In this document: positions 1 through 18,587 of the stretch, piece after piece
Layout of the letters: every line of letters begins with the position of its first letter
How positions within the stretch are numbered: the stretch's first letter is position 1
Source: Demequina pelophila
GTDB lineage: Bacteria > Actinomycetota > Actinomycetes > Actinomycetales > Demequinaceae
Length of the DNA stretch: 64,000 nucleotides
Reading direction: 5' to 3'
Assembly: GCF_000971175.1 (NCBI RefSeq)
Contig: NZ_BBLY01000009.1
Coordinates: forward strand, 1 to 64,000
Notes under the pieces: model-generated
Database searches by the model: none
The model's input: only the letters and a program-made list of their open reading frames with translations
Told to the model about the DNA's origin: nothing
Program-made: the position numbers and the translations under genes

Positions 1-732
1 GGTGTGCTCGCGCATGTTGGTGCTTCCGGTCTCGATCCAGATGGTGTGGTGGACGATGCGGTCCATGATGGCATCGGCGTGGACGCCGCCGCCGAGTCGC
101 TGGTGCCAGTCCTTCTTGGCGTACTGGGTGCAGAACACCGTCGACGCTTCGTCGTAGCGACGCTCGAGCAGTTCCAGGAGCATGCTGCGGACATCGCCGG
201 TGGGCGGGTCGAGGAGCCATTCATCGATCACGAGGAGCGTGAACGCCGCGTATTTGCGCAGCCACTTGTCCTTGCCGCCGGGCCGGTCCTTCGCCGCGAC
301 CCACGATTCCTCAAGGTCGGGCATGCGGATGTAGTGGGCGCGGTAGCGGTGCGTGCAGGCCTGCTTCGCCAACGCCGATCCCAGATACGACTTGCCCGAT
401 CCCGTGAAGCCTTGGAACACGACGTTCTGATGGCGGGTGATGAACTGGCAGGTGCCCAGCTGCGCGATGACGCCACGGTCCAGGCCGCGCTGTTCGAGCA
501 GGTCGAGCCGTCGCAGGTCGGCGTCGGGGTAGCGCAGTCCGGCGCGACGGATCAGGCCATCGACCTTGGCGTGCGTGTAGGCGGCGTGGGCGTCATCCAC
601 GGCGAGCTTGATGCGCTCCTCGAACACCATCCCCAGCGTGAGTGCCTCGTCCTGGGCGTCGAGGGCGTCGACCAAGGTCGCGACGCCCATCTCTCGTAGC
701 TTGCGCTTGGACTCGACGTCGATGCGGCTCAT
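1..732 (-). CDS. istB: IS21 helper ATPase IstB (C-terminus outside window)
   Basis: This is the ATP-binding helper of IS21-type transposition, an AAA+ DnaC-like protein that loads on target DNA and stimulates IstA. The minus-strand frame from ATG at 732 is open for 244 codons to the window edge. It starts MSRIDVESKRKLREMG and has a Walker A motif GFTGSGKS about 110 residues in. Further on come a DEW Walker-B-like stretch and the family motif STVFCTQ. The start overlaps the istA stop (ATGA), so the two are translationally coupled. The protein itself looks undamaged up to the edge. It can act only with an intact IstA, which this copy lacks. Confidence 0.9.
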   Translation of the reverse strand, partial: MSRIDVESKRKLREMGVATLVDALDAQDEALTLGMVFEERIKLAVDDAHAAYTHAKVDGLIRRAGLRYPDADLRRLDLLEQRGLDRGVIAQLGTCQFITRHQNVVFQGFTGSGKSYLGSALAKQACTHRYRAHYIRMPDLEESWVAAKDRPGGKDKWLRKYAAFTLLVIDEWLLDPPTGDVRSMLLELLERRYDEASTVFCTQYAKKDWHQRLGGGVHADAIMDRIVHHTIWIETGSTNMREHT

Positions 733-1683
733 CGGGCACCACCGGCGTAGTAGTCCGCACCACGCACATAGCCGCTCGTATCGGCGGCCGACGCAGGTTG
801 CTCGGCTGCATGGCGTTGCAGTTCTTGGCGGGACTCGAGGATGGGGCGCAGGTGCGCGTAGCGGGGCGAGTGCACCGCGGTCAGCGCGATGCCGGCGGCC
901 GCTTCGACACGTTCACCGGAGTAGCGGCGTGTCAGGCGCAGCACCGCCAACGCCGCATCGAGGCCTTGCTCGTCGATGGCGACGGATTCGAAGATCCGGT
1001 TCACGACCGTGGTCGTGTCGGGACCGATCCGTCCCGCCCACTGGCGTACCCGAGCAGCGTCCCACGGTTCGTAGCGGCCACCGTCAGGGACATGGCTGTC
1101 GTGGGTGCGGTAGTCGTTGACGACCCCCGGCGGGGCCAGCAGGTGCGACGCGATGCGCTGATCGGAAGCGAAGATCTCGACCATCGAGTCCGTGACGCGC
1201 AGATCCACCGCCGTCCCGATGTGGGCGTACGGCACCGAGTAGAAGTTCTTGTCGAAGACCACGTGGCCGTTCTTCTGCACACGACGGCCGTAGACCCAGG
1301 AAGCGATCTCAAACGGCACGGCCGGCAGCGGCCGCAGCAGCGGGCGCTCCTCAGACGTGAAGACGCTCGTGCGGGATCCGGCACGCTTTTGGAACGGCTC
1401 GGCGTTGAAGACTGCGACGCGCTCATGGATCGCGGCCCGTAGGTCCGCCAGGGTCGCGAAGGACTCGTGGCGCAGCGTGGCGATGACGGCGGTGGCGATG
1501 TTGCCCACGGTTCCTTCCACCGACGCCTTGTCCTTCGGCTTGCGAACGCGGCCCGGCAGCACTGCGGCCGAGTAGTGCGCCGCGAGTTCCCGATACGCGT
1601 CGTTGAGGACGATCTCGCCTTCGCGGGGACGCTTGGTGACGCCGGTCTTGAGGTTGTCGGGCACGATCCTCGGCGTCGTGCCG
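729..1683 (-). pseudogene. istA: IS21 transposase IstA, C-terminal fragment
   Basis: Only the last ~318 residues of the DDE transposase remain. They begin near PRIVPDNLKTGV, the block around the second catalytic Asp region of IstA, continue through the KDKASVEGTVGNI block, and run to the normal C-terminus. The N-terminal helix-turn-helix and first catalytic Asp are absent. The frame stays open past 1683 into IS256 sequence as far as 2054, but that part is not IstA-like and is an artefact of the junction. The stop overlaps the istB start. No function as a transposase is expected. Confidence 0.85.
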
Positions 1684-1717
1684 GAGCCTGTCAAGTTGTT
1701 TGTGTAAGGCGCGGGGT

Positions 1718-2386
1718 TCATAGGTAGGGCTCGATGCGCTCGGGGTAGGCCAGCGCGAGTTGTTCGAGGGCTTGCTTCCAGTTGGTGGTGACCTGGCCCT
1801 CGACGAGTCGTCCGGATGCCTTGCGTTCGGATGCGGGTGCTCCGCGTTCTCGTTGCCGGTCGCGTGCGCGCTTGTCCTCGATGTCGCAGATCGCCAGCCA
1901 CAGCAGCTTGATCGCGGCTTGGTCGTTGGGGAAGTGGCCGCGGTTCTTGGTGACCTTGCGCAGCTGGAAGTTCAGCGACTCGATCGCGTTGGTCGTGTAG
2001 ATCACCCGCCGCAGCGCGGGCGGGAACGCGAGGAACGGGATGAACTTCTCCCATGCGTCGCGGAATGCCTTCACCGTCGACGGGTACTTGACGCCGAGTT
2101 CGGATGCGGCGAACTCCTCGAGCGCCTCAGCGGCGGCATCGACGGATGGGGCCTGGTAGATCGGTTTCAAAGCGGCTGCGACGGTCTTGCGGTCCGCGTA
2201 GTTCACGAACCGCATAGCGGCGCGGATGAGGTGCACCACGCACGTCTGGACGGTCGCTTCGGGCCAGGTCGCGCCGATCGCCTCAGGAAAGCCGGTCAGT
2301 CCGTCGCAGCACACGATGAGGACGTCACGCACGCCCCTGTTGGCGAGCTCGGCGCACACCGAAGCCCAGAACTTCGCTCCCTCGGT
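1718..2386 (-). pseudogene. IS256 transposase, C-terminal part (split by ISL3)
   Basis: This is the second half of the Mutator-family DDE transposase. It starts at TEGAKFW and includes VCCDGLTGFPEAI (second catalytic Asp region), VHLIRAAMRFVNY and the TTNAIESLN block bearing the catalytic Glu. It ends EPYL at 1718. Joined to the part at 3819-4505 across one copy of the 8-bp duplication it reads ...LGIWVQT|TEGAKFW... in frame and gives a normal ~451-residue transposase. The long open frame upstream to 2629 is ISL3 sequence and not part of the protein. Confidence 0.9.
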
Positions 2387-2394
2387 GGTTTGGA

Positions 2395-3818
2395 GGCTCT
2401 TCGCAGATGGGGCTGTAGCGCCGTCGCACGGGTGACTGGTCGGGGGTAGGGGTCGAGGTCCCCCAGGATGGAAGTTCCTACACACCCATCCGGAAGACCT
2501 CGACTTGCTCAACGCTACCTTCGGCGCGCCCGACCTCACGACCTTCTGCAACCTCGACGCCCTCGGCTTGACCGTCACCGGGCAGCGGATCGACACCCAC
2601 CGCGCGGTGCTCGAGTGCCGCGTCGCCATGATCGACGATGTCTGCCACGAGTGCGGTGACCGGGGCCGTTCCCTGGGTACGCAGTCGCGTTACCTCGCCC
2701 ATGAGCCCTTCGGGTGCCGACCTACGACGCTGCTGGTGCGGGTGCGTCGCTACCGGTGCGAGCCGTGCGACAGGTTCTGGCTCGACGACCTCCGTGCGGC
2801 GGCGGAGCCACGCGCGAAGATCTCCCGCGGCGGACTCGCATGGGCGCTGCGCGCGCTCGTCGTGGACCACCTGAGCATCTCCCGCATCGCTGCGGGCCTC
2901 GGCGTCGCATGGCACACCGCGAACGACGCGGTCCTGACCGAGGGGCACCGCCAGCTCATCAACGACCCCACCCGCTTCCAGGGCGTGCGCGTGCTCGGCG
3001 TCGACGAGCACGTGTGGCGACACACCCGCTACGGCGGCAACTACGTCACGGTCATCATCGACCTCACCCCGGTACGCGACGGGGTAGGTCCGGCACGGCT
3101 GCTCGACATGATCCCTGGCAGGTCGAAGGCGACGTTCCAGACGTGGCTGGCCGAACGGCCCCGGTGCTGGAGGGAACGGATCGAGTCGATCGCCATGGAT
3201 GGCTTCAGCGGGTTCAAGACCGCCGCCGCAGAAGAACTCCCGACCGCGACCGCCGTGATGGACCCGTTCCACGTCGTCAAGCTCGCCGGCGACGCCCTCG
3301 ACCAGTGCCGTCGCCGACTACAGCAAGCCATCCACGGCCATCGAGGACGGGCCGGCGACCCGCTGTACATGGCCCGCCGGATCCTCCACACCGGCTTGGA
3401 GTACCTCACCGACCGCCAGTGGGCACGCCTCGAGGCGCTGTTCGACACCGACGACCATGCTGAGGTCGAAGTCACCTGGGGTGTCTACCAGCGCATCATC
3501 ACCGCCTACCGCCACCCCGACCGCGTCGCCGCCCGCGCCAACTTCGCCGGCCTCATCGAGTCACTGCGCACCGGCGTGCCGGCACCGCTCGTCGAACTGC
3601 GCCGCCTCGGCCGGACCCTGAGCCATCGCGCCGCCGACGTCCTGGCGTACTTCGACCGGCCAGGAACCTCGAACGGACCCACCGAGGCCATCAACGGTCG
3701 CCTCGAGCACCTCCGCGGATCAGCCCTGGGCTTCCGCAACCTCACCCACTACATCGCCAGGTCCCTCCTCGAAACCGGCGGCTTCAGGCCGCAGCTACAG
3801 CCTCATCTGTGAAGAGCC
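2395..3818 (+). mobile_element. Complete ISL3-family insertion sequence
   Basis: Inverted repeats of about 25 bp bound this 1424-bp element: 2395-2419 (GGCTCTTCGCAGATGGGGCT) and 3794-3818, whose reverse complement reads GGCTCTTCACAGATGAGGCT. A perfect 8-bp direct repeat GGTTTGGA flanks it at 2387-2394 and 3819-3826, the target duplication length usual for ISL3. It carries one full-length transposase gene whose stop codon lies inside the right inverted repeat. Its terminal repeats, duplication and open frame are all intact, so it is the youngest insertion of the three and may still be mobile. Confidence 0.95.
2505..3812 (+). CDS. ISL3-family transposase
   Basis: A 435-residue transposase of the ISL3 (transposase_12-type DDE) family. 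The N-terminal zinc-ribbon-like region has paired cysteines (CHECGDR about residue 45, CEPC about residue 86). A helix-turn-helix follows (ISRIAAGLGVAWHTAND). The catalytic core includes GVDEHVW, VIIDLTP, SIAMDGFSGF, MDPFHVVKLA and the C-terminal GPTEAINGRLEHLRG block with the catalytic Glu. No ATG is in frame near the start. TTG at 2505 is the best candidate, giving a length normal for the family. It is probably functional, because nothing in the frame is broken. Confidence 0.93.
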   Translation: MLNATFGAPDLTTFCNLDALGLTVTGQRIDTHRAVLECRVAMIDDVCHECGDRGRSLGTQSRYLAHEPFGCRPTTLLVRVRRYRCEPCDRFWLDDLRAAAEPRAKISRGGLAWALRALVVDHLSISRIAAGLGVAWHTANDAVLTEGHRQLINDPTRFQGVRVLGVDEHVWRHTRYGGNYVTVIIDLTPVRDGVGPARLLDMIPGRSKATFQTWLAERPRCWRERIESIAMDGFSGFKTAAAEELPTATAVMDPFHVVKLAGDALDQCRRRLQQAIHGHRGRAGDPLYMARRILHTGLEYLTDRQWARLEALFDTDDHAEVEVTWGVYQRIITAYRHPDRVAARANFAGLIESLRTGVPAPLVELRRLGRTLSHRAADVLAYFDRPGTSNGPTEAINGRLEHLRGSALGFRNLTHYIARSLLETGGFRPQLQPHL

Positions 3819-4505
3819 GGTTTGGACCCAGATCCCCAGGACGTGCTTGATGCCGTCCATGTCGACGCCGACGGCGATGTGGGCGGCCTTGTTGCGTACG
3901 TGGCCGCCGTCGCGGATCTTCACCACGATCGCGTCGAGGTAGATCACCGGATACAGGGGCTCCAGCGGGCGTGACTGCCAGGCAAGGACCTCGTCCGATA
4001 CGGCGTCGACGATCTTCGAGATCGTCTCGTGGGACAGCTCGGTGCCGATGGTGGACGCCAGATGGTGGCCGATGTCACGGATCGTCATCCCGCCCGCGTA
4101 CAGCGAGATGATCATCGCGTCCAGGCCGTCGAGTCGGCGCTGCCCTTTGGGGATCAGCATCGGGGTGAACGTGCCATCACGGTCGCGCGGGATCGCAAGG
4201 TCCACGTCACCGATCTCGGACGCGACCGTCTTCGCGTAACTGCCGTTGCGGGAATCGGGCAGGTACTGGCCGGCGGGGTCGCCACGTTCGTAGCCCACGT
4301 GAGCGGTCAGCTCGGCCTCGAGCCCGCGTTCGAGGGTGGCTTTGAGCATGCCCTTGATCAGACCCTCATGGCCGGTCAGGGGCTCGCCGGCATCGATGAG
4401 CGCGAAAACCTCATCCAACGCGCCCGACGCTTTCAGCGCGTCAGCGACCTGCTCCTGCTGACGACGCCGCAGTTCACGCTCCGGGTCCGTACTCGCCATG
4501 GACAT
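3819..4505 (-). pseudogene. IS256 transposase, N-terminal part (split by ISL3)
   Basis: This is the first ~229 residues of the Mutator-type transposase, starting MSMASTDPE. It has the family blocks KATLERGLEAELTAHVGYE, RNGSYAKTV, DRDGTFTP, SLYAGGMTIRDI, LSHETISKIVD and YLDAIVVKIRDGG, which carries the first catalytic Asp. It breaks at LGIWVQT exactly at the ISL3 target duplication. An internal ATG at 4499 is an alternative start. The gene is inactive while the ISL3 copy is present, but precise excision would restore it. Confidence 0.9.
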
Positions 4506-4816: not shown

Positions 4817-5692
4817 CTAGCCGTCGATGCGGCGAAGCTTGCTCAGCGGAGCCAATTCGCCGGGAAAAACCTTCTTGACTCCATCGCCAAGAGCCTCCTC
4901 AATGATCCGGATATCCCGGCACAGCGAGATGAACCCCTTGGGCTCCAGCGACGCCGCATGATCCGAACCCCACATGGTGCGGTCAAGAGTGATGTGGCGC
5001 TCAACGGCCACGGCGCCCAACGCCACAGCGGCGATCGAAATCTGCAAGCCCGGCTCGTGACCTGAGTAGCCCACGGGCACGCCATAGCGGTCCTTGAGCG
5101 TTCGAATCATCAGGAGGTTCGCCTCGCCCGGGGGCAACGGGTAGGTCGACGTGGCATGCAAGATGATGAGGTTGTCCTTGCCGAGGGTCTCGACCGCGGT
5201 GTCGATCTGCTCGATGGTCGACATGCCCGTCGACAGGATGACCGGCTTCCCGGTCGCCCTGATCCGGCGCAACATGCCCAGATCCGTGACCGAGGCGGAG
5301 GCGATCTTGTAGGCGACCGCGTTCATCGACTCAAGGAAGTCGACGCTCGGCTCGTCCCACGGCGAGGCGAACCACACGACGCCCTTCTCCTTGCAGTACC
5401 CATCGATCTCGGCGTACTCGGCCTGCTCGAACTCCACCTTGAAGCGGTACTCGAGATAGGTCATCGTGCCCCACGGCGTCTCGCGAGGGGTCGACTTCAT
5501 GTGCTCCGGGGTCGCGATCTCTGGGGTGCGCTTCTGAAACTTCACAGCTTGGGCACCAGCCTCGACGGCGACGTCGATGAGCCTCTTCGCGTTCTCGACC
5601 GAACCGTTGTGGTTCAGCCCGATCTCTGCGATCACGTAGACCGGCTGGTTGGCACCGACGAGGTCCGCGCCGATCTTCACTGTGTCAGCCAC
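4817..5692 (-). CDS. neuB: NeuB-type nonulosonic acid synthase
   Basis: A 291-residue member of the NeuB family, which condenses phosphoenolpyruvate with a hexose-type aldehyde (ManNAc, Man-6-P or a related sugar) to form a sialic-acid-like nonulosonate. Visible family blocks are EIGLNHNG near the N-terminus, VKFQKR, YKIASASVTD, STGMST, GYSGHEPG and the HITLDRTMWGSDHAASLEP stretch. It ends right after the barrel, so it lacks the C-terminal antifreeze-like (SAF) domain that most ~340-residue NeuB proteins carry. The GTG start overlaps the preceding gene by 8 bases and has a GGAGC ribosome site. It is the last gene of the minus-strand polysaccharide operon. Which nonulosonate it makes cannot be read from the sequence. 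Confidence 0.88.
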   Translation of the reverse strand: MADTVKIGADLVGANQPVYVIAEIGLNHNGSVENAKRLIDVAVEAGAQAVKFQKRTPEIATPEHMKSTPRETPWGTMTYLEYRFKVEFEQAEYAEIDGYCKEKGVVWFASPWDEPSVDFLESMNAVAYKIASASVTDLGMLRRIRATGKPVILSTGMSTIEQIDTAVETLGKDNLIILHATSTYPLPPGEANLLMIRTLKDRYGVPVGYSGHEPGLQISIAAVALGAVAVERHITLDRTMWGSDHAASLEPKGFISLCRDIRIIEEALGDGVKKVFPGELAPLSKLRRIDG

Positions 5693-6968
5693 GAGGGGCT
5701 CCTTTCGTCCCGTTGCTCGTGCTCAGCGTAGTCGCTTCTGCAGGCCTACCGCGCCGCAGCAGTCGGACTAGAGGCCGCAGCGAGCGTGTGGCATGCCGGG
5801 CGGTTCTCCCCAGGATTCGGCGCAGCGCGAAGTCCTCGTCACCAAGCGCCTCGAAGCGACGTCGAGAGCGGTTTGCAATCCCCACCGCACCGCGACGAGG
5901 AGCACGATATGACGGACGCGCACCACCCTCTGCCTCGCCGAGTAGCCGGGTCGCCGCGGCTACCCAATCGTCAGCGTCTGATCCGTGGAAGTAGTTGTCT
6001 CGCATCCAACCAGGGTCGGGGTGGCGGAAGTCGAGCCGAGTGAGGTCCGCGAGCGTTCCGAACAGACCCGAACCTTCGAACACGACATTGATGGTCTTGG
6101 CGTCGACGCCGAAGTCGGAGAGACACAGCACCGGCACTCCCGCCGCGATGGCTTCAAGCGCAGCGGTCGAACTGACGGTGACGAAACCCGCGCAGCCGGG
6201 GAGGTGCTCGCGAAGTGGCCCATAGCCGAATCCCAAGTTCAAGGGCCACCTGTGCTCGGGAACCTCTGCGGCGAGTTCGGGGAAGGATGCGAACTCCGCG
6301 TGCGTCTGCGCCTCGCCCTCTTCTCCGCGCAACTTGATCACGAACTCGAGCTCGGGGTGCTGGTACGCGGCCGTGACAAGACCAGCGAGCAGCTGTCGTC
6401 GGTCGCCGACGGTGCGAGGCACGAGTGCCTGGGGAGCGAATACAACTGTGCGCGGCGGCGCACTCGCCAGCGCATCCGTCGAGATCAGCGATGCGAGCCC
6501 CGTGGCACGCAGGTTCCCGAGCGGCAACAGGGCGCCCACGTGCTTGCGCTCGCGCTCGCTGTGCACGATGATCAGGTCTGTCGCTGACCTCAACTCGAGG
6601 CCGAGCCGCGTGGGCGGCATCCAGATTCCGGGAATGCCCGCGATCGCCACCCGGCACGGGGGGGTACCCGCGAAGGTCTCCTCGAGCAACAGTTGAATGA
6701 GCGGGCCACGGCACGCGAGCAGAAGAAGATCGGGCTCGTCTGTGCGTAGCCGCGCGACGAGTTCGGGGTAGCCAATTACGGGCAGGTCATCGAGACGACC
6801 GTCGACTGCCGCTTCCCTTTGGGCGGCACTGGGGGTCACCGCGTTTCGCACCACGACCACCTCGACGTCCCACTCGGGCGGCGCCTCGAGAGCGCGGGTC
6901 ACCCCCCATTTCAGGTATGAATCCGAGTCCGCGACGATGAGCAACCGCACCCGGCGTGGCGGCGTCAT
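5685..6968 (-). CDS. DUF6716-type putative glycosyltransferase
   Basis: A 427-residue soluble protein that begins with a Rossmann-like strand (VRLLIVADSDSYLKWG). It has a GT-B-like shape with a conserved C-terminal region (GFVTVSSTAALEAIAAGVPVLCLSDFG), like the nucleotide-binding half of GT-B enzymes. It resembles the actinobacterial DUF6716 group that sits beside neuA/neuB genes. It is sandwiched between the CMP-synthetase fusion (ATGA overlap) and neuB (8-base overlap). This suggests it transfers or modifies the nonulosonate. Residues 370-427 are Arg/Ser-rich, possibly membrane-associating. The acceptor is unknown. Confidence 0.65.
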   Translation of the reverse strand: MTPPRRVRLLIVADSDSYLKWGVTRALEAPPEWDVEVVVVRNAVTPSAAQREAAVDGRLDDLPVIGYPELVARLRTDEPDLLLLACRGPLIQLLLEETFAGTPPCRVAIAGIPGIWMPPTRLGLELRSATDLIIVHSERERKHVGALLPLGNLRATGLASLISTDALASAPPRTVVFAPQALVPRTVGDRRQLLAGLVTAAYQHPELEFVIKLRGEEGEAQTHAEFASFPELAAEVPEHRWPLNLGFGYGPLREHLPGCAGFVTVSSTAALEAIAAGVPVLCLSDFGVDAKTINVVFEGSGLFGTLADLTRLDFRHPDPGWMRDNYFHGSDADDWVAAATRLLGEAEGGARPSYRAPRRGAVGIANRSRRRFEALGDEDFALRRILGRTARHATRSLRPLVRLLRRGRPAEATTLSTSNGTKGAPRG

Positions 6969-8134
6969 CCGAGCTCCCGCGCCACGAGAATCCGCTCAGC
7001 CAGCTCGCGCAGGGCGCCCGCCCCGCCAGGACGAGTCAGCGTGACGCGCGCCGCGCGCGCCGCGTCAGGGTGCGCGTCCGGCACCACGACGGGCCACCCG
7101 ACGATCTCCAGCGCCGGAACGTCGTTCACGTCGTTGCCAACATAGGCCACGCGCTCCAGGTCGAGACCGTGGCCGACGCACCACTCGCGCAATGCAGTGG
7201 CCTTGTCGTCGACGGCGTGGAGCACTTCGATGCCCAGCTTCGCCCCGCGTGCGGCGACCACTGGGTTGCGCTCCTTTGACAGGATCAGCATGGGGATACC
7301 GGAAGCCCGGAGCTTCCCGATGCCCATGCCGTCGGAGCGGCTCACCCGCACCGCCTCGACACCATGCTGGTCGACGGAGACGGTGTCGTCCGTATGCACC
7401 CCGTCAAAGTCCATCACCAGCGCGTCGACATCGATCGGCTCCATCCCGTCGAGGAACGAGGCAAGTGTTCGAGCGAGATCCAGTTCGTGGACCGCATCAA
7501 TCTCAACCCCTGCGGACTGCTCGACCTCGGCGATGCCGACACGGCCAAAGAACCGGAAGCCGCGGTCGCGGAAGCCGGCGGTCTCCATCACGTAGAACGC
7601 GCCGGTCTCCTGATAGTGCGGCTCCCGGTCCTGACGACGGGGTCGAAACGAGCGATCATGGTTGACCCCAACGGCGCCCTCGGCGCTGTCTGCCCACAGG
7701 AAGGCGTAGGTCTCGAACGCCGAGAACATCGAGTCGTAGTTGCCGTCGAGCACTGAGCGCACGGCGGAGTCGAGCGCAGCGGAGTCGATGAACGGCGAAG
7801 TCGCCTGGAGAAACGCAAGGACCCGCGGCTCGATGCCGTCCGCGGCGAGTACGTCGAGCGCATGCAAGAGCGCAGACTCGGAGGTCGCGGTGTCGCCCGC
7901 GATCTCCGAAGGTCGGTCAACCACCCGTGCGCCCGCGGCGCGGGCGACAGCGGCGATCGCGGCATCGTCCGTTGACACATACACAGCGTCGATGCTGGGC
8001 GCCGCGAGCGCGGCGCGCACCGCGCGGGTCACCAGGGGTACACCGCCGACGCGCGCGATGTTCTTGCCCGGAACGCCCTTCGATCCTCCCCGCGCAGGAA
8101 TAATGGCTACGGCCTTGGTTTCGGGTGATGACAC
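6965..8134 (-). CDS. neuA: CMP-nonulosonate synthetase fused to HAD phosphatase
   Basis: A bifunctional protein of 389 residues. The N-terminal ~225 residues are an acylneuraminate cytidylyltransferase (IIPARGGSKGVPGKN, FLQATSPF, YQETGAFYV). From about residue 237 a C0-type HAD phosphatase follows, with DFDGVHTDD (motif I), LSKERN (motif II/III Lys) and GNDVNDVPAL (motif IV). The HAD part resembles KDO-8-P and Kdn-9-P phosphatases. It would remove the phosphate before or around CTP activation, giving CMP-sugar donor. GTG at 8134 is chosen: it lies two bases after the previous stop and behind GAGGAG. The open frame continues to 8200, but that part overlaps the upstream gene. Confidence 0.88.
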   Translation of the reverse strand: MSSPETKAVAIIPARGGSKGVPGKNIARVGGVPLVTRAVRAALAAPSIDAVYVSTDDAAIAAVARAAGARVVDRPSEIAGDTATSESALLHALDVLAADGIEPRVLAFLQATSPFIDSAALDSAVRSVLDGNYDSMFSAFETYAFLWADSAEGAVGVNHDRSFRPRRQDREPHYQETGAFYVMETAGFRDRGFRFFGRVGIAEVEQSAGVEIDAVHELDLARTLASFLDGMEPIDVDALVMDFDGVHTDDTVSVDQHGVEAVRVSRSDGMGIGKLRASGIPMLILSKERNPVVAARGAKLGIEVLHAVDDKATALREWCVGHGLDLERVAYVGNDVNDVPALEIVGWPVVVPDAHPDAARAARVTLTRPGGAGALRELAERILVARELG

Positions 8135-8136
8135 CT

Positions 8137-9087
8137 CTAGCTCCTCGGAACGGTATCGGATAGCGCGCGCCGCATGCTGGCATCTGCCGCATCGGTCCAC
8201 CAGTGCGGAGGCACGGGCTCGATCCGGTGTAGCACGGCGCTTGGCAGCACATGAGCGAGAGTTGCAGCTGTGCTCGACGGCAAGGAGATCACCGACCTCA
8301 GTCCGGGCGACGTTGCTAGCACCAGTTCAGCCGGCAACTCGGTGCGCACCACGTTCAAGCCCGCATCGGTGAGTCTGTACAGGACTTCGGCGGACTCGCG
8401 GCGATGCGGGAGGTACGTGGCGCCCGGGCCTCCGGCCGTAGTTGCCCAACGCTCATAGGCATCTGCATCGATGTAGCCGTCTGCCGCAAGGGCCGAGCCG
8501 ATGACCACGTGCTGCCCGACTGCGTGCGGTTCCAGTGGCGTCACGGACCGCACCCACTGGTAGCGGTTCATCGTCACGGTCACGCCCAGGTCGACGAGGC
8601 CCCGTACCTCGGCGACGTCATAGGCTGTGAAGAGTTCGAGGCGGCCGGCGCTGGCGGCCCTGACGAGGCGCGCGCGCGTCGCGAGGCCGAGCGCACGTGC
8701 CACGGTTGACTCGTGCTGCCCCATACGGCCAAAAGCCTCCCCATGCCGGAGAACCCTCGCCAGGTGAAGGGTAGCGGAACCGTCGTCGACGACCACAGCC
8801 TCACGGGTCGTGGAAAGCACGGTCAGTAGCCGGAAGTGACCGGAGAACGCGTCGCCGACCACCCATCGTGTTGCAGACCGTAGCCCCGCGCGGAACGGGT
8901 CCGCAGCCGTCACCATCTCGACATGCGGAATCGAGTTGGTCACCAAGGGCAGCAGCCGTGCACGCAACGGATCTAGCGACGGTACGCCACTGCGCAACAC
9001 GACGTTGCACGGCTCGCCCGTGGCGTGCGCCCACTCGAGGACGTTGAGTGCTTGAAGCGGCGATTCGACCCATGCAGCGGTGGTCAC
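8137..9087 (-). CDS. Putative sialyl/polysialyltransferase-like protein
   Basis: A 316-residue protein starting AAWVESPLQALNVLEWA. The SPLQ...N..E pattern is typical of the GT52/polysialyltransferase superfamily N-terminus. A VVVDDGSATLHLAR stretch and a GQHVVIGSALA stretch fit the two halves of a GT-B-type enzyme. The GTG start overlaps the upstream ABC ATPase stop by four bases. The stop lies two bases before the CMP-synthetase start, so the acceptor enzyme and donor supply are coupled. It most likely adds nonulosonate residues from the CMP-sugar to the growing glycan. The family call is by motif only. Confidence 0.6.
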   Translation of the reverse strand: MTTAAWVESPLQALNVLEWAHATGEPCNVVLRSGVPSLDPLRARLLPLVTNSIPHVEMVTAADPFRAGLRSATRWVVGDAFSGHFRLLTVLSTTREAVVVDDGSATLHLARVLRHGEAFGRMGQHESTVARALGLATRARLVRAASAGRLELFTAYDVAEVRGLVDLGVTVTMNRYQWVRSVTPLEPHAVGQHVVIGSALAADGYIDADAYERWATTAGGPGATYLPHRRESAEVLYRLTDAGLNVVRTELPAELVLATSPGLRSVISLPSSTAATLAHVLPSAVLHRIEPVPPHWWTDAADASMRRALSDTVPRS

Positions 9088-9818
9088 TTCGACCTCTCGT
9101 ATGCCCTGATCACCTCTTTGGGCGTACCGTCCATCTTGAGAACTCCGTGGTCGATCCAGATGACACGATTGCAGGTGTCGCGGATCGATTTCATCGAGTG
9201 GCTCACCAGGAACACGGTGCCCGCTTGATCGCGAAGATCCCTGATACGTTGCTCGCTCTTCGCCTGGAACTCCTTGTCGCCTACGGCGAGCGCCTCATCT
9301 ACGAGCAAGATCTGGTGGTCCCTCGAGATTGCGATGGAGAACCGCAGCCTCGCCTGCATGCCCGACGAGTAGGTCTTCATGGGCAGGTCGATGAACTCCT
9401 CGAGACCCGAGAATTCGACGATCTCGTCCCTGATCCCGTCGATCTCGTCAAGGCCGTGGCCGAGCGCTAGCGCACCCAACGTGATGTTCTTGTCTCCGGA
9501 CAGGTCGGGGATTAGCGCCGCGTTGACACCGAGCAGGGCTGGCCTACTGGCGGCGTGCACGCTCCCGCGGGTGGGTGCCTGTAGACCCGCGATCGTGCGC
9601 ATGAGAGTGGACTTGCCGGAGCCGTTGTGACCGATGACACCGATCGACTCGCCCTCGTGTGCAACGAACGACACGCCCTTGACGGCGCGGACGATACGCA
9701 CGCCGCGCTGTCGCTTGAGCAACGCGCGCCTATCGCTTGCCGCCTTGCCGGACGCAAACGTGCGGTATTCGACATGGACCCCGTCGACGACGATGTTCGG
9801 CCTACCGATCTCAGCCAC
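9084..9818 (-). CDS. ABC-2 polysaccharide exporter ATPase (second pair)
   Basis: A 244-residue nucleotide-binding subunit of the Wzt/TagH type. It has Walker A GHNGSGKST, a signature region in the exporter form KTYSSGMQARLRF, Walker B ILLVDEALAVGD and a switch His in LVSHSM. The GTG start at 9818 is preceded by GAGGAG and overlaps the permease stop by eight bases. No C-terminal glycan-binding extension is present, so export should not depend on a terminal cap. The long open frame upstream to 9962 is antisense to the permease. It pairs with the permease at 9811-10677 to move a lipid-linked polymer across the membrane. Confidence 0.9.
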   Translation of the reverse strand: MAEIGRPNIVVDGVHVEYRTFASGKAASDRRALLKRQRGVRIVRAVKGVSFVAHEGESIGVIGHNGSGKSTLMRTIAGLQAPTRGSVHAASRPALLGVNAALIPDLSGDKNITLGALALGHGLDEIDGIRDEIVEFSGLEEFIDLPMKTYSSGMQARLRFSIAISRDHQILLVDEALAVGDKEFQAKSEQRIRDLRDQAGTVFLVSHSMKSIRDTCNRVIWIDHGVLKMDGTPKEVIRAYERSK

Positions 9819-10677
9819 GGCCGTACCTCTCCTCGGCCCGCCAGAAGAAGACAAGGCCAGAGACGAGGAACACGACCGCCGCAACGGACGCGGTGACCCA
9901 CAGCACTCCCGGCACATCTTGCGTCTCTTGCAGCGCGCCCCGCGAGAGCTCGATGAATGCATGCACGGGGTTCAGCTGCGCGACCTGGAGCACCCACGCC
10001 GGGTGCTTCGGAGGCGCGAGGACCAGCTCGAGCGAGTAGAAGATTCCCGACATGTAGAAGATGATGCGGGTAATGATCGGGATCAACTGCGAAACGTCGC
10101 GCAGATGCACGGTCAGTCGAGCCGCGATGAGCGCGATGCCGGTATTGAACATGGTCATCAGCACGAGGATGGGGACCATCATCAGCCAGGTCCAGCTCGG
10201 GAACTCACCGAAGCCGACAAGGATCACCGCAAGCACCGCGAGCATCGGCACCAGTTCATACAGTTGGCGCATGACCGCGGAGATCGGCAGGAGCATGCGC
10301 GGGAATGCGAGGCTGCGCACCAGTGAGAGGTTCGCCGAGATCGACTTTGCGCCCTGCGAAAACGACTTCGAGAAGAACGTAAAGATGAAGAAGCCGGTGA
10401 CAAGGAACGGGATGAACTTAGGTGGGCGTGACTCGCTTGACATGATGACGCCAAAGATGAGTCCGTAGACGGCGGCCTGCAGCAGAGGGTTGAGGACCAC
10501 CCACGCCAGGCCGAGCCGGTTCTCCGCCATGGTCGCCTCAACCCGGAACCGCGCCATCGTGGATGCGAAGTGCCGGCGTCTCCACAGTTCGCGCATGTAG
10601 GCGATGAACGGTGCCCGCGCCCCCACGCGCGGCAGCCCCGCGTCCCGCGCCACCCCGCCGTAGTCGATCTCGCTCAC
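9811..10677 (-). CDS. ABC-2 polysaccharide exporter permease (second pair)
   Basis: A 288-residue Wzm/TagG-type permease with about six membrane segments: around residues 58-80, 88-108, 140-160, 168-190, 200-220 and 255-278. The N-terminal amphipathic part reads MRELWRRRHF and the family stretch RLGLAWVVLNPLLQ follows. It starts with GTG (SEIDYGG) and sits 25 bases after the GT2 gene. It forms an exporter with the overlapping ATPase. Its closeness to the nonulosonate genes suggests that this pair carries the nonulosonate polymer, but substrate cannot be proven from sequence. Confidence 0.9.
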   Translation of the reverse strand: MSEIDYGGVARDAGLPRVGARAPFIAYMRELWRRRHFASTMARFRVEATMAENRLGLAWVVLNPLLQAAVYGLIFGVIMSSESRPPKFIPFLVTGFFIFTFFSKSFSQGAKSISANLSLVRSLAFPRMLLPISAVMRQLYELVPMLAVLAVILVGFGEFPSWTWLMMVPILVLMTMFNTGIALIAARLTVHLRDVSQLIPIITRIIFYMSGIFYSLELVLAPPKHPAWVLQVAQLNPVHAFIELSRGALQETQDVPGVLWVTASVAAVVFLVSGLVFFWRAEERYGRG

Positions 10678-10702: not shown

Positions 10703-11776
10703 TCAACGCCCCGCGTACGCGTTCTGCCCCTCAGGGGCTTTCACGATACCCGCGATGCAGCCCGCCCCCCACGCGGCGTGCATGGTGGGCAGCACCGCCA
10801 GCAGCCGAACGCGCAGCGCCGGCGCCACGTCCGCGCGCGAGGCGGTCCACGCCAGCCATCCACCGTAGACGATGAACGGGCTGGCCCCAAGCCCGGCCAC
10901 GAGCCACGCGATCGCGCCGTGCAGCGCGAGCGGCCCCACGACGAGCAGCACCGCGCCGATGACGAACGACACCACCAACGCGGGCGGCACGAAGTAGCGG
11001 ATGGGTTGGCTCGCCCCGAGCCTGCGAATGAGCTCGCCGCGCCACCGGCCGGAGGCGTGGAACTGGCGCACCAGGGCGGGCAGGTTGGGGCGGGGCCGGT
11101 AGACCACCTCGAGTTCGGGCTCGAACCACACCACACCGCCCGAGCGCGCGAGGCGCCGGTTGAACTCCCAGTCCTCGCCGCGCGCGAGATCCTCGTCGAA
11201 CCCCCCGATGGCCAGGACCGGCTCACGGCGGAAGACGCCCAGGTAGGCGGACTCCGCGAGGCCGGCCTCGCCGCCCGTGTGATAGATGGCGCCGCCGAGA
11301 CCGGCGGGCGAGTTGTAACCCCACGCGACCGCCCTCTCGAAGCGGGACACGCCCTCGGCGCGCATGCGGCCTCCCACGTTCGCCGCGCCCGTCCGCTGCA
11401 GCGTGCGGATCGCCGTCTGCGCGTAGTCGGGCGGGAGCACCGCGTGCGCGTCGACCCGCACGATGTACGGGTGCACCGCCTCGGCGATGCCGATGTTCAT
11501 CGCGATCGAGATCGCGTTGCGCGGATTGGGCAGCGCCCTCACGCGCGAGTCCTCTGCCACGAGCCGCGCGACGATCTCGTCGGTGCGGTTGCGGTTGCGG
11601 GAGCGCCCGAGCATCACGAGCAACTCGAACTCCTCGAGCCCGCGTTGCGCGAGCACCGATCGGATCGCGGCCTCGACGTGCCGCTCCTCGTCGGGCACAG
11701 GTATGACGAATGTCGCCGCGAGGCGCGCGGGGCGCGCATCCATGCGACGCTCGCGCGGCACCCCCGGCTCGCTCAC
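10703..11776 (-). CDS. Family 2 glycosyltransferase, membrane-anchored
   Basis: A 357-residue GT2 enzyme of the ExoA-like type. The GT-A domain covers about residues 20-240, with the donor-site Asp in VRVDAHAVLPPDY, an acceptor region GEDWEFNRRL and YRPRPNLPALVRQFHASGRWR. The C-terminal ~110 residues hold three or four hydrophobic segments. One oddity is the sequence VIPVPDEERH where most relatives have NEER. The GTG start overlaps the ATPase stop (GTGA). It sits between the two exporter pairs and is probably a main chain or side-chain transferase of the glycan. Confidence 0.85.
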   Translation of the reverse strand: MSEPGVPRERRMDARPARLAATFVIPVPDEERHVEAAIRSVLAQRGLEEFELLVMLGRSRNRNRTDEIVARLVAEDSRVRALPNPRNAISIAMNIGIAEAVHPYIVRVDAHAVLPPDYAQTAIRTLQRTGAANVGGRMRAEGVSRFERAVAWGYNSPAGLGGAIYHTGGEAGLAESAYLGVFRREPVLAIGGFDEDLARGEDWEFNRRLARSGGVVWFEPELEVVYRPRPNLPALVRQFHASGRWRGELIRRLGASQPIRYFVPPALVVSFVIGAVLLVVGPLALHGAIAWLVAGLGASPFIVYGGWLAWTASRADVAPALRVRLLAVLPTMHAAWGAGCIAGIVKAPEGQNAYAGR

Positions 11777-12516
11777 GCCTCTCCCCTCATGCGCCGCACC
11801 ACGGCATGCGGTTCATCGTCCATCACGACCACCCCATGCTCGAGCAGGATCCCGCGATCGCACAGGTCCGCCACCATGTTGAGATCGTGGCTCACGATCA
11901 CGAGCGTCTTGCCCTCGGCGCGCAGCGAGCGGATGCGGTCCAGGCACTTGCGCTGGAACGGCTCGTCGCCCACGGCCAGGATCTCGTCGACCAGGAACAC
12001 ATCGGGATCAGTGTGCACCGCGACCGCGAACGCCAGGCGCAGAAACATGCCCGACGAGTAGAACTTGACCTCCTGGTCGATGAACTCCTCGATCTCGGAG
12101 AACGCGACGATCGCCTCGAAGCGCTCCTCGATCTCCGCCTCGGTCATGCCCAGGATGGCACCGTTGAGGTAGACGTTCTCGCGGCCCGTGAGGTCCGGGT
12201 GGAAGCCGGCGCCCACCTCGATGAGGCCCGCGATGCGGCCGCGCACGCCCACCTGGCCCTCGTCGGGGGTGAGCACACCGGAGATGCACTTGAGCAGCGT
12301 GGACTTGCCAGAGCCGTTGAAGCCCAGCAGCGCCACCGTCTCGCCCTCGGCGATGGTGAGCGAGACATCCTTGAGCGCGGTGAACTCGTCGACGTTCTCC
12401 GAGCGGCCGCGCACCCACCGGGCGACGGTCTCCTTGAGCGAGTGGACGTGGCGGAACCGGAAGCGCTTGACCAGCGCGTCGACGACGATGGCCTCGCGGC
12501 CCGTGGCGGACCCCAT
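11773..12516 (-). CDS. ABC-2 polysaccharide exporter ATPase (first pair)
   Basis: A 247-residue Wzt/TagH-type ATPase with Walker A GFNGSGKST, a KFYSSGMFLRLAF signature, Walker B VFLVDEILAVGD and VSHDLN. ATG at 12516 follows the permease stop with a one-base overlap (TGATG). The longer open frame to 12951 is a shadow of the permease. Like the second copy it lacks a C-terminal carbohydrate-binding domain. It directly follows glfT2 and its permease, so galactofuranan is the most likely cargo, as for the Rv3781/Rv3783-type galactan exporter of mycobacteria. Confidence 0.9.
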   Translation of the reverse strand: MGSATGREAIVVDALVKRFRFRHVHSLKETVARWVRGRSENVDEFTALKDVSLTIAEGETVALLGFNGSGKSTLLKCISGVLTPDEGQVGVRGRIAGLIEVGAGFHPDLTGRENVYLNGAILGMTEAEIEERFEAIVAFSEIEEFIDQEVKFYSSGMFLRLAFAVAVHTDPDVFLVDEILAVGDEPFQRKCLDRIRSLRAEGKTLVIVSHDLNMVADLCDRGILLEHGVVVMDDEPHAVVRRMRGEA

Positions 12517-13395
12517 CACAGCTCCTGCGCGAACGTGCGGGACATGCGGGTGAACACGCGGTCGCCCACCCACAGCAGCACCACGCTGACCGCGAGCGCG
12601 ATGACGCCACGGGTCATGACGTGGTCGACCAGGGCGCCGTCGCGGATGCCCGGCTCGGCGGCGTTCCACCAGAAGGCCCGGTGGAACAGCTCGACGGCGA
12701 TGGTGAGCGGGTTGGCCTGGTAGAGCCAGGTGAGCCAGCTGTCGGCGCCGAAGTGGTCGCGGACCAGGGCGATGTTGTACAGCACGGGCGAGAACCACAC
12801 GGCGACCATGAGGATGAGGTCGACCGTGTTCTCGGTGTCGCGGTAGGCGACGTTGATCGCGGCGAACAGCAGGCCCAGGCCCAGCGCGAACACCAGGGTG
12901 AGGGCGATGCCCAGCACGCCGGCGACCACGCCCAGCAGGTCCGGCCGCCATCCGGAGATGAGCGCGCCGACGACGAGGATCACCAGCTGCGGCAGGAAGT
13001 GCACCAGCGCAACCAGGACGGAGGACAGCGGGAACAGCTGGCGCGGCAGGAAGATCTTGCGCACGAGCGCGCCGTTGCCCACCACGGAGCGGGTCGCGTT
13101 GCCCAGGATCTCCGAGAACAGGTTGATGACCACGATGCCGGAGAACAGGAAGATCGCGTACGGCGGCAGCGACCGGGACAGATTGAGGAACTGCCCCATG
13201 ACGAAGTAGAAGACGGCGAACTGCGCGCCGGGCTTCACATAGGACCAGGCGAGGCCCAGCACGGAGGCCTGGTAACGCACGCGCAGCTCCTTGCGGACCA
13301 GCAGCGTGAGCAGGTAGCGGTCGCGCACCAGGCTCAGCAGCCCGCGCGCGACCCCCGGACGCTCCATCCCCTCGGGAAGGGGACGGAGCGCGGCG

Positions 13396-13403
<8 letters not shown>
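12516..13403 (-). CDS. ABC-2 polysaccharide exporter permease (first pair)
   Basis: A 295-residue permease with about six membrane helices and the family motif RYQASVLGLAWSYVKPGAQ near residues 43-62. It overlaps the end of glfT2 by eight bases and the ATPase start by one base, so galactan polymerase and exporter are made from one transcript. It resembles Rv3783 of the mycobacterial galactan exporter in position and type. It should flip lipid-linked galactan to the outer face. Confidence 0.9.

Positions 13404-18587
<5,184 letters not shown>

Follow-up and report, generated by a model that had tools for sequence, protein, structure and literature searches.

Chemical work has established that actinomycetes make wall polymers of Kdn (3-deoxy-D-glycero-D-galacto-non-2-ulosonic acid), and a gene region of Streptomyces has been linked to them. 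According to PMC11481543 and PMC7831098, teichulosonic acid is a polymer of galactose and Kdn; the genes SCO4873-SCO4882 of S. coelicolor are called a teichulosonic-acid cluster (PMC13011467), the work of Ostash et al. 2014 being cited for this region (PMC13011467, PMC8003754). A route to CMP-Kdn through Kdn-9-phosphate (Kdn-9-P) is known from Bacteroides thetaiotaomicron (BT1714 and partners) and from Prymnesium parvum; the P. parvum synthase used only mannose-6-phosphate (Man-6-P) out of seven sugars tested, and its CMP-Kdn synthetase is said not to produce CMP-N-acetylneuraminic acid (CMP-Neu5Ac) (PMC6200933). Sinorhizobium fredii SVQ293 produces a Kdn polysaccharide (PMC7845648). Here we describe a gene module in a 64,000-nucleotide stretch of Demequina pelophila DNA (assembly GCF_000971175.1, contig NZ_BBLY01000009.1, positions 1 to 64,000; hereafter the window) that, judging from its sequence, very probably makes CMP-Kdn from Man-6-P and builds an exported surface polymer. 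Kdn wall polymers and the Streptomyces region being known already, what the window adds is a locus with its own exporter. An earlier note, made from the letters of this DNA alone, had predicted a CMP-Kdn rather than a Neu5Ac pathway here and had pointed to the Kdn wall polymers (teichulosonic acids) of actinomycetes; the predicted pathway is supported by the epimerase, SAF and HAD (haloacid dehalogenase) residue tests and by the match to Streptomyces genes given below.

The module comprises a short NeuB-family synthase, a DUF6716 protein, a CMP-sugar synthetase fused to a HAD phosphatase (hereafter the fusion), a GT-B protein designated orf316, a Wzm/Wzt-type ABC exporter pair and a family 2 glycosyltransferase (GT2; Table 1). 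The first four genes are also present in S. violaceoruber NRRL S-981 (locus L148), where the order is polysialyltransferase PF07388, GT2, DUF6716, fusion, NeuB and orf316. The printed S. coelicolor annotations are hypothetical (SCO4877), glycosyltransferase (SCO4878), conserved hypothetical (SCO4879), putative transferase (SCO4880) and polysaccharide biosynthesis or NeuB (SCO4881), and a Planobispora table gives SCO4882 as hypothetical. By order and annotation alone, the S. violaceoruber genes fit SCO4877-SCO4882 position by position, the two organisms being filed by NCBI in different species groups. The four module proteins of the window are 31-61% identical to their Streptomyces counterparts (60.6% for NeuB with the S. 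violaceoruber copy). In contrast to the Streptomyces locus, the gene order differs in the window, the Wzm/Wzt pair and the GT2 gene adjoin the module, and no match to the PF07388 polysialyltransferase was found among the 19 window open reading frames (ORFs) scanned (0.7-24.3 kb).

According to PMC6200933, the Bacteroides route has the three steps proposed here, from Man-6-P through Kdn-9-P and Kdn to CMP-Kdn, and the Bacteroides phosphatase (3e81, 3e8m) shares a Glu/Lys pair with the HAD half of the fusion; however, the route is cited there as three proteins with separate accessions, whereas phosphatase and synthetase are fused in the window. The same source recognises no phosphatase partner in P. 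parvum, whose 273-aa synthetase has a C-terminal membrane segment instead of a HAD domain. In the rhizobia S. meliloti ml28 (pSymB) and S. fredii NXT3, NeuB, fusion and DUF6716 genes adjoin and the fusion is 47-48% identical to that of the window, but for NeuB the identity falls to about 35%, and these strains differ from the sugar-analysed SVQ293. The pSymB module (L093:8059-13866) has neighbours annotated as an alpha-2,3-sialyltransferase and an O-acetyltransferase, and possibly represents a Kdn surface polysaccharide locus. Searches for a Sinorhizobium K-antigen with Kdn and for KDN9P/KDO8P returned nothing relevant in the literature searched.

In the proposed pathway, NeuB would condense Man-6-P with phosphoenolpyruvate (PEP) to yield Kdn-9-P, the HAD half of the fused protein would take off the 9-phosphate to give Kdn, and the cytidylyltransferase half would convert Kdn and CTP into CMP-Kdn. 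A Kdn polymer would then be assembled by orf316, possibly with the help of DUF6716 and the GT2 enzyme, and exported to the wall by the Wzm/Wzt pair. The substrates, the order of the reactions, the identity of the polymer and the functions assigned to orf316 and DUF6716 are what we infer; domains, intact catalytic residues, gene neighbourhoods and their conservation, the lack of PF02350 and NanE sources of N-acetylmannosamine in the genome, and the Streptomyces equivalent are computed results.

Of the fusion, 122 copies were collected and four shorter than 370 aa were dropped, leaving 118 full-length ones, many of them from close Streptomyces relatives. The fusion of a cytidylyltransferase to a C0-type HAD phosphatase, already pointed out in the earlier note, is no frame artefact, since it is present at full length in 15 of 36 congeners and in three of 22 further genomes from the same order (59 genomes searched, counting the organism's own), and since its catalytic positions are conserved (116-118 of the 118 copies). 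The nucleophile Asp (residue 264 of the window protein) is found in 117 copies and the second Asp in all 118, while the motif 2 Ser, the motif 3 Lys and both Asp residues of GNDxND are each found in 117. The places aligning with E56 and K67 of the Bacteroides phosphatase, which we take to be its specificity residues, hold Glu in 117 and Lys in 116 copies, and the Bacteroides chain 3e81 indeed carries E56 and K67 there. The deposited chain 4hgq has Ala at the Glu place, which would fit a mutant of the Bacteroides phosphatase. At these two places the unlabelled C0-type chains 3n1u and 4nav carry Ala/Gln and Arg/Asp, and the KdsC-labelled chains 7t35, 3ij5, 3n07 and 3i6b, read by eye, carry Arg and then Thr or Ala. 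The top solved relative of the HAD half was 3mmz (171.6 bits), followed by 3e81, the Bacteroides Kdn-9-P phosphatase (80.8 bits). Since the sequence of 3mmz is, by eye, near-identical to the HAD half of Streptomyces fusions, this chain seems to have been solved from part of a Streptomyces-type fusion; its source is presumably S. avermitilis. The best solved relatives of the synthetase half were 9t4z (PpNeuA; 115 bits), taken here as the P. parvum CMP-Kdn synthetase, and then the mouse CMP-Neu5Ac synthetase (103 bits).

The earlier note had placed its gene set at positions 4817-8134. Both NeuB and the fused protein are real, and what it left out is the DUF6716 gene between them (5685-6968). Its end coordinate fits a GTG start codon inside the fused gene, at 8134, where the longest ORF has its residue 23. 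This GTG is the likelier start of the fused gene because most homologue matches begin just downstream, at residues 24-30 (11 of 18 full-length copies), and we regard it as a plausible start on these alignments.

The NeuB protein of the window has no SAF domain, as noted before, and none was found in any of the 41 fusion-neighbour NeuB proteins scanned; in contrast, 19 of 21 NeuB proteins not adjoining a fusion, hand-picked for comparison (20 from the class-sample list plus the second copy of the window genome), do have it. SAF is, we assume, the part of the Neisseria enzyme that contacts the N-acetyl group and helps to hold it. With TIGR03569, a model of canonical bacterial Neu5Ac synthesis, the NeuB of the window scored 268.8 bits (cut-off 399.65). 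The fusion-associated proteins carry KFQKR, [YF]SGH and ERH in all 120 sequences collected, while counting by eye in the 21 others gave SDH at the second motif in 16, and EKH in 18 and ERH in three at the third. Mammalian NANS, which takes 6-phosphorylated sugars, is presumed by us to have the SGHE/ERH form. The length of 291 aa is unchanged in all 15 fusion-bearing congeners. In a tree of 70 NeuB rows, the 47 actinobacterial fusion NeuB proteins formed one group (support 100/99) with the two rhizobial ones apart, and the tree tool warned that long branches meet at the rhizobial rows. A second NeuB-domain protein of the window genome (G000:C4:73583-74308; L041:8807-10366), a 519-aa ORF also without SAF, has in its vicinity a TPR protein and three further ORFs, two of them cytidylyltransferases and one inositol-phosphatase-like, in this genome without PF02350.

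Regarding the sugar substrate, no UDP-GlcNAc 2-epimerase (PF02350) was found in the whole window genome (99.99% complete), the control search being positive in 11 of 14 named genomes. Accordingly, the earlier observation that no such epimerase lies nearby can be extended to the entire genome, and no neuC-type epimerase adjoins the module. Within the genus, PF02350 was found in none of the 16 fusion-bearing genomes (own plus 15 congeners) versus seven of the 21 fusion-free congeners, a contrast that ignores kinship and includes one fusion-bearing genome only 88% complete. A NanE-like source of N-acetylmannosamine (ManNAc) was considered and discarded, as the sole genome-wide match was indole-3-glycerol phosphate synthase (IGPS/TrpC). 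The genome encodes a type I phosphomannose isomerase (PMI, ManA); its co-occurrence with the fusion was rejected as support, since it is near-universal (35 of 36 congeners) and shows merely that Man-6-P can be made.

The module is conserved as a unit. NeuB, DUF6716, orf316 and the exporter pair lie near the fusion in all 15 fusion-bearing congeners (stretches of 17.6-20 kb), and the GT2 gene in 12 of them. In a sample of 394 genomes of the class, the fusion was found in 72. In 61 of these a single match spans its full length, and in 11 it comes as a two-piece match, both halves being listed with the same open-frame length; five genomes with the synthetase half only were excluded. All 72 have a NeuB-family match, which lies at most 3.5 kb from the fusion in 58 of the 61, and in two of the remaining three the fusion is at a contig end. 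A scan of named genomes that started from a Streptomyces sequence gave the order DUF6716, fusion, NeuB, orf316 in 70 of the 80 loci taken (best 80 of 582 relatives). In some congeners an extra large ORF is located between module genes (712 aa at L028:11824-13962; 920 aa at L033:11581-14343), perhaps for strain-specific decoration of the polymer.

In part of the class the joining of enzymes goes further. Fusion and NeuB share the same frame and the same open-frame length in 15 of the 61 class genomes whose fusion match is full-length, 14 of them from one family (f35 in our numbering) and one from another (f9), with open frames of 692-754 codons; in other f35 genomes (G233, G224, G164, G403) the two are separate. 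In Streptosporangium canum (L172:8001-10100), synthetase, HAD domain, a short linker and NeuB follow one another with no stop and with all motifs present. The same stop-free arrangement occurs in all six named Streptosporangiaceae loci among the best 80 of 582 (Microbispora, Acrocarpospora, Microtetraspora, Nonomuraea and two Streptosporangium), measuring 690 residues in Nonomuraea gerenzanensis, and in a Streptomyces sp. (L160), where the ORF listing alone likewise gives no stop between the fusion and NeuB matches. A predicted one-chain CMP-Kdn pathway of about 690-740 residues was also seen at L167, L170, L171, L173, L174, L094, L080 and L039. Enzymes joined into a single chain usually act in one pathway, and the triple fusion therefore speaks for a route from Man-6-P through Kdn-9-P and Kdn to CMP-Kdn. 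In the literature searched, which did not extend to most subscription papers, neither the two-part nor the three-part fusion was found described.

The likeliest role of orf316, on its modelled structure, is that of a CMP-Kdn transferase. The model (pLDDT, predicted local distance difference test, 94.7) has a GT-B fold, and its top structural match was the bacterial polysialyltransferase 5wc6 (Z 16.8, root mean square deviation 4.3, 286 aligned); plant UDP-glycosyltransferases (UGTs) were the best non-sialyltransferases (14.3) and sialyltransferase 2z4t scored 13.9. Foldseek's own ranking placed a plant UGT first and the polysialyltransferase second. A DDG at residues 101-103 is invariant (52/52) and matches what we take to be the D/E-D/E-G motif of bacterial sialyltransferases; at their presumed HP motif orf316 has a conserved His followed by Arg, not Pro (52/52). 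Near-duplicate orf316 and DUF6716 rows had been removed by a k-mer filter before these counts and those below. No match to PF07388 or to any other Pfam family was found for orf316.

Several results weigh against a Kdn product, the strongest being the modelled fold of DUF6716, which comes nearest to UDP-GlcNAc 2-epimerases. Its GT-B model (pLDDT 91.7) returned named 2-epimerases or NeuC in 28 of the first 30 rows of the structural search, with Z scores of 20.0 for the top 2-epimerase, 17.4 for NeuC 5zlr and 17.1 for the first plant UGT. Moreover, a DUF6716 Arg-Asp pair (R127 in 51/51, D131 in 50/51) has, by eye, the spacing of the epimerase R135/D139, and the HAD domain alone cannot separate Kdn-9-P from Neu5Ac-9-P. 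Were DUF6716 an unrecognised UDP-GlcNAc 2-epimerase, the module could make CMP-Neu5Ac by a 9-phosphate route, from ManNAc-6-P through Neu5Ac-9-P. We consider this unlikely. DUF6716 had no match to PF02350, hhalign found no relation to four epimerases (probability below 1%, with a thin profile), and conserved acids seem absent where epimerases have YGD, HxEAGLR and PEExNR (by eye, not on coordinates); because of these three results DUF6716 was kept as a glycosyltransferase. The family is itself named putative glycosyltransferase; hhalign gave no relation between DUF6716 and orf316, the DUF6716 profile found nothing below E 0.5 among solved chains, and the word DUF6716 did not occur in the literature searched. 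Also against CMP-Neu5Ac are the lack of SAF in NeuB, given its presumed N-acetyl contact, and the Streptomyces cluster of the same genes, linked to Kdn (PMC11481543, PMC13011467, PMC7831098). The epimerase distribution is less clear-cut beyond the genus: PF02350 is present in one of the three fusion carriers found elsewhere in the order (G056, more than 2 Mb from the fusion), in 33 of the 72 class fusion genomes (39 without) and in 15 of the 19 fusion genomes of family f35. As the class-wide pattern is looser, weight was put on the genus-level contrast; the known epimerase route could nevertheless not feed a ManNAc-needing module in about half of the hosts, the window organism included, because PF02350 is missing there. 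Missing SAF alone is no proof of Kdn, since Serratia KL1 and KL2 strains make both Kdn and Neu5Ac with a different NeuB architecture (PMC9000132). To these points are added the position of the distant rhizobial NeuB outside the actinobacterial group, the label 'sialic acid synthase' given to the SCO4880 counterpart in the Planobispora table, and the fact that the literature within reach of our search, which most subscription papers are not, yielded neither an enzyme assay for the actinobacterial route nor wall chemistry for this organism. The label fits the SCO numbering only on the condition that Planobispora has a triple fusion here; SCO4880 and SCO4882 have counterparts in that table and SCO4881 has none, as expected if SCO4880 and SCO4881 are one gene there.

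The NCBIfam scores also count against Kdn. The HAD half scored 89.9 bits with the NCBIfam Kdn-9-P phosphatase model NF058599 (cut-off 180), tying with the KdsC model NF007019 (89.2 bits; cut-off 208), so that Kdn-9-P is favoured by the HAD residue test and not by this model. For the synthetase half, PseF was the top-scoring NCBIfam model (125.7 bits; cut-off 205.7). The product might therefore be thought to be another nonulosonate or an octulosonate, namely pseudaminic acid, legionaminic acid or 3-deoxy-D-manno-oct-2-ulosonic acid (Kdo). This seems to us very unlikely, as PseF and KdsC, and also the PseI model with NeuB (218.3 bits; cut-off 340.25), all stay below their cut-offs. In addition, the KdsC-type Arg was not found at the Glu place in the fused copies, and no aminotransferase or dehydratase family was matched among the 19 ORFs scanned. 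Legionaminate synthesis needs a PF02350-type epimerase, of which the window genome has none. Finally, the genes could be a decaying remnant beside insertion sequences, with the polymer no longer made. Three transposase ORFs lie directly beyond neuB (729-4505; Mu-type, ISL3 and Mutator-family), and in the Mutator-family one the match is confined to roughly the first half of the profile. However, the module ORFs are open, NeuB has kept its length across the genus and the catalytic residues are retained, which makes decay the least probable of these explanations.

The locus offers a compact testable set, in which a single synthase and a two-domain enzyme are joined by an exporter and a pair of candidate transferases. 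A SAF-less NeuB beside a synthetase-HAD fusion is a sequence marker of genomes that probably make Kdn and not Neu5Ac, and its use would correct automatic labels such as 'N-acetylneuraminate synthase'. A broader proposal, for and against which we find the balance about equal, is that actinobacteria possess a channelled CMP-Kdn factory built on the two-domain enzyme, with the synthase also absorbed in Streptosporangiaceae (about 690 residues), and served by orf316 as an unclassified family of CMP-Kdn transferases and by DUF6716, the latter perhaps descended from a 2-epimerase-like fold. On this proposal, Kdn wall polymers may be far commoner than chemistry shows, given the number of sampled class genomes that carry the fusion (72 of 394).

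Table 1. Genes of the module in the window, with the matches obtained and the roles predicted from sequence or model.
Feature	Position	Strand	Matches	Predicted role
NeuB-family synthase, 291 aa	4817..5692	-	PF03102, 275.7 bits, whole domain covered; no SAF	Predicted Kdn-9-P synthase (Man-6-P + PEP)
DUF6716 protein, 427 aa, GT-B fold	5685..6968	-	PF20471, 362.7 bits	Predicted polymer glycosyltransferase (model)
Fused protein, 411 aa from longest ORF	6965..8200	-	CTP_transf_3, 85.8 bits (N half); HAD families (C half)	
Fused protein, residues ~29-245			Pfam, NCBIfam and PDB matches	Predicted CMP-Kdn synthetase
Fused protein, residues ~257-405			Pfam, NCBIfam and PDB matches	Predicted C0 HAD Kdn-9-P phosphatase
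orf316, GT-B protein, polysialyltransferase-like	8137..9087	-	No Pfam family	Predicted CMP-Kdn transferase (model)
ABC exporter ATPase, Wzt/TagH-like	9084..9962	-	Pfam/NCBIfam profile matches	
ABC exporter permease, Wzm/TagG-like	9811..10677	-	PF01061	
Family 2 glycosyltransferase, probably same operon	10703..11776	-	PF00535	

All the genes of the module are transcribed leftwards, the operon ending with NeuB. Comparisons of the exporter ATPase were limited to 9084-9875 because its ORF overlaps the permease gene. The neuB end of the cluster looks mobile, since the three transposase ORFs adjoin it. At the other end, a galactan-type cluster (11773-16547) adjoins, containing GlfT2, a UDP-galactopyranose mutase and a second Wzm/Wzt pair; a cluster of this type also lies beside the module in L023, the congener whose fusion protein resembles that of the window most closely.

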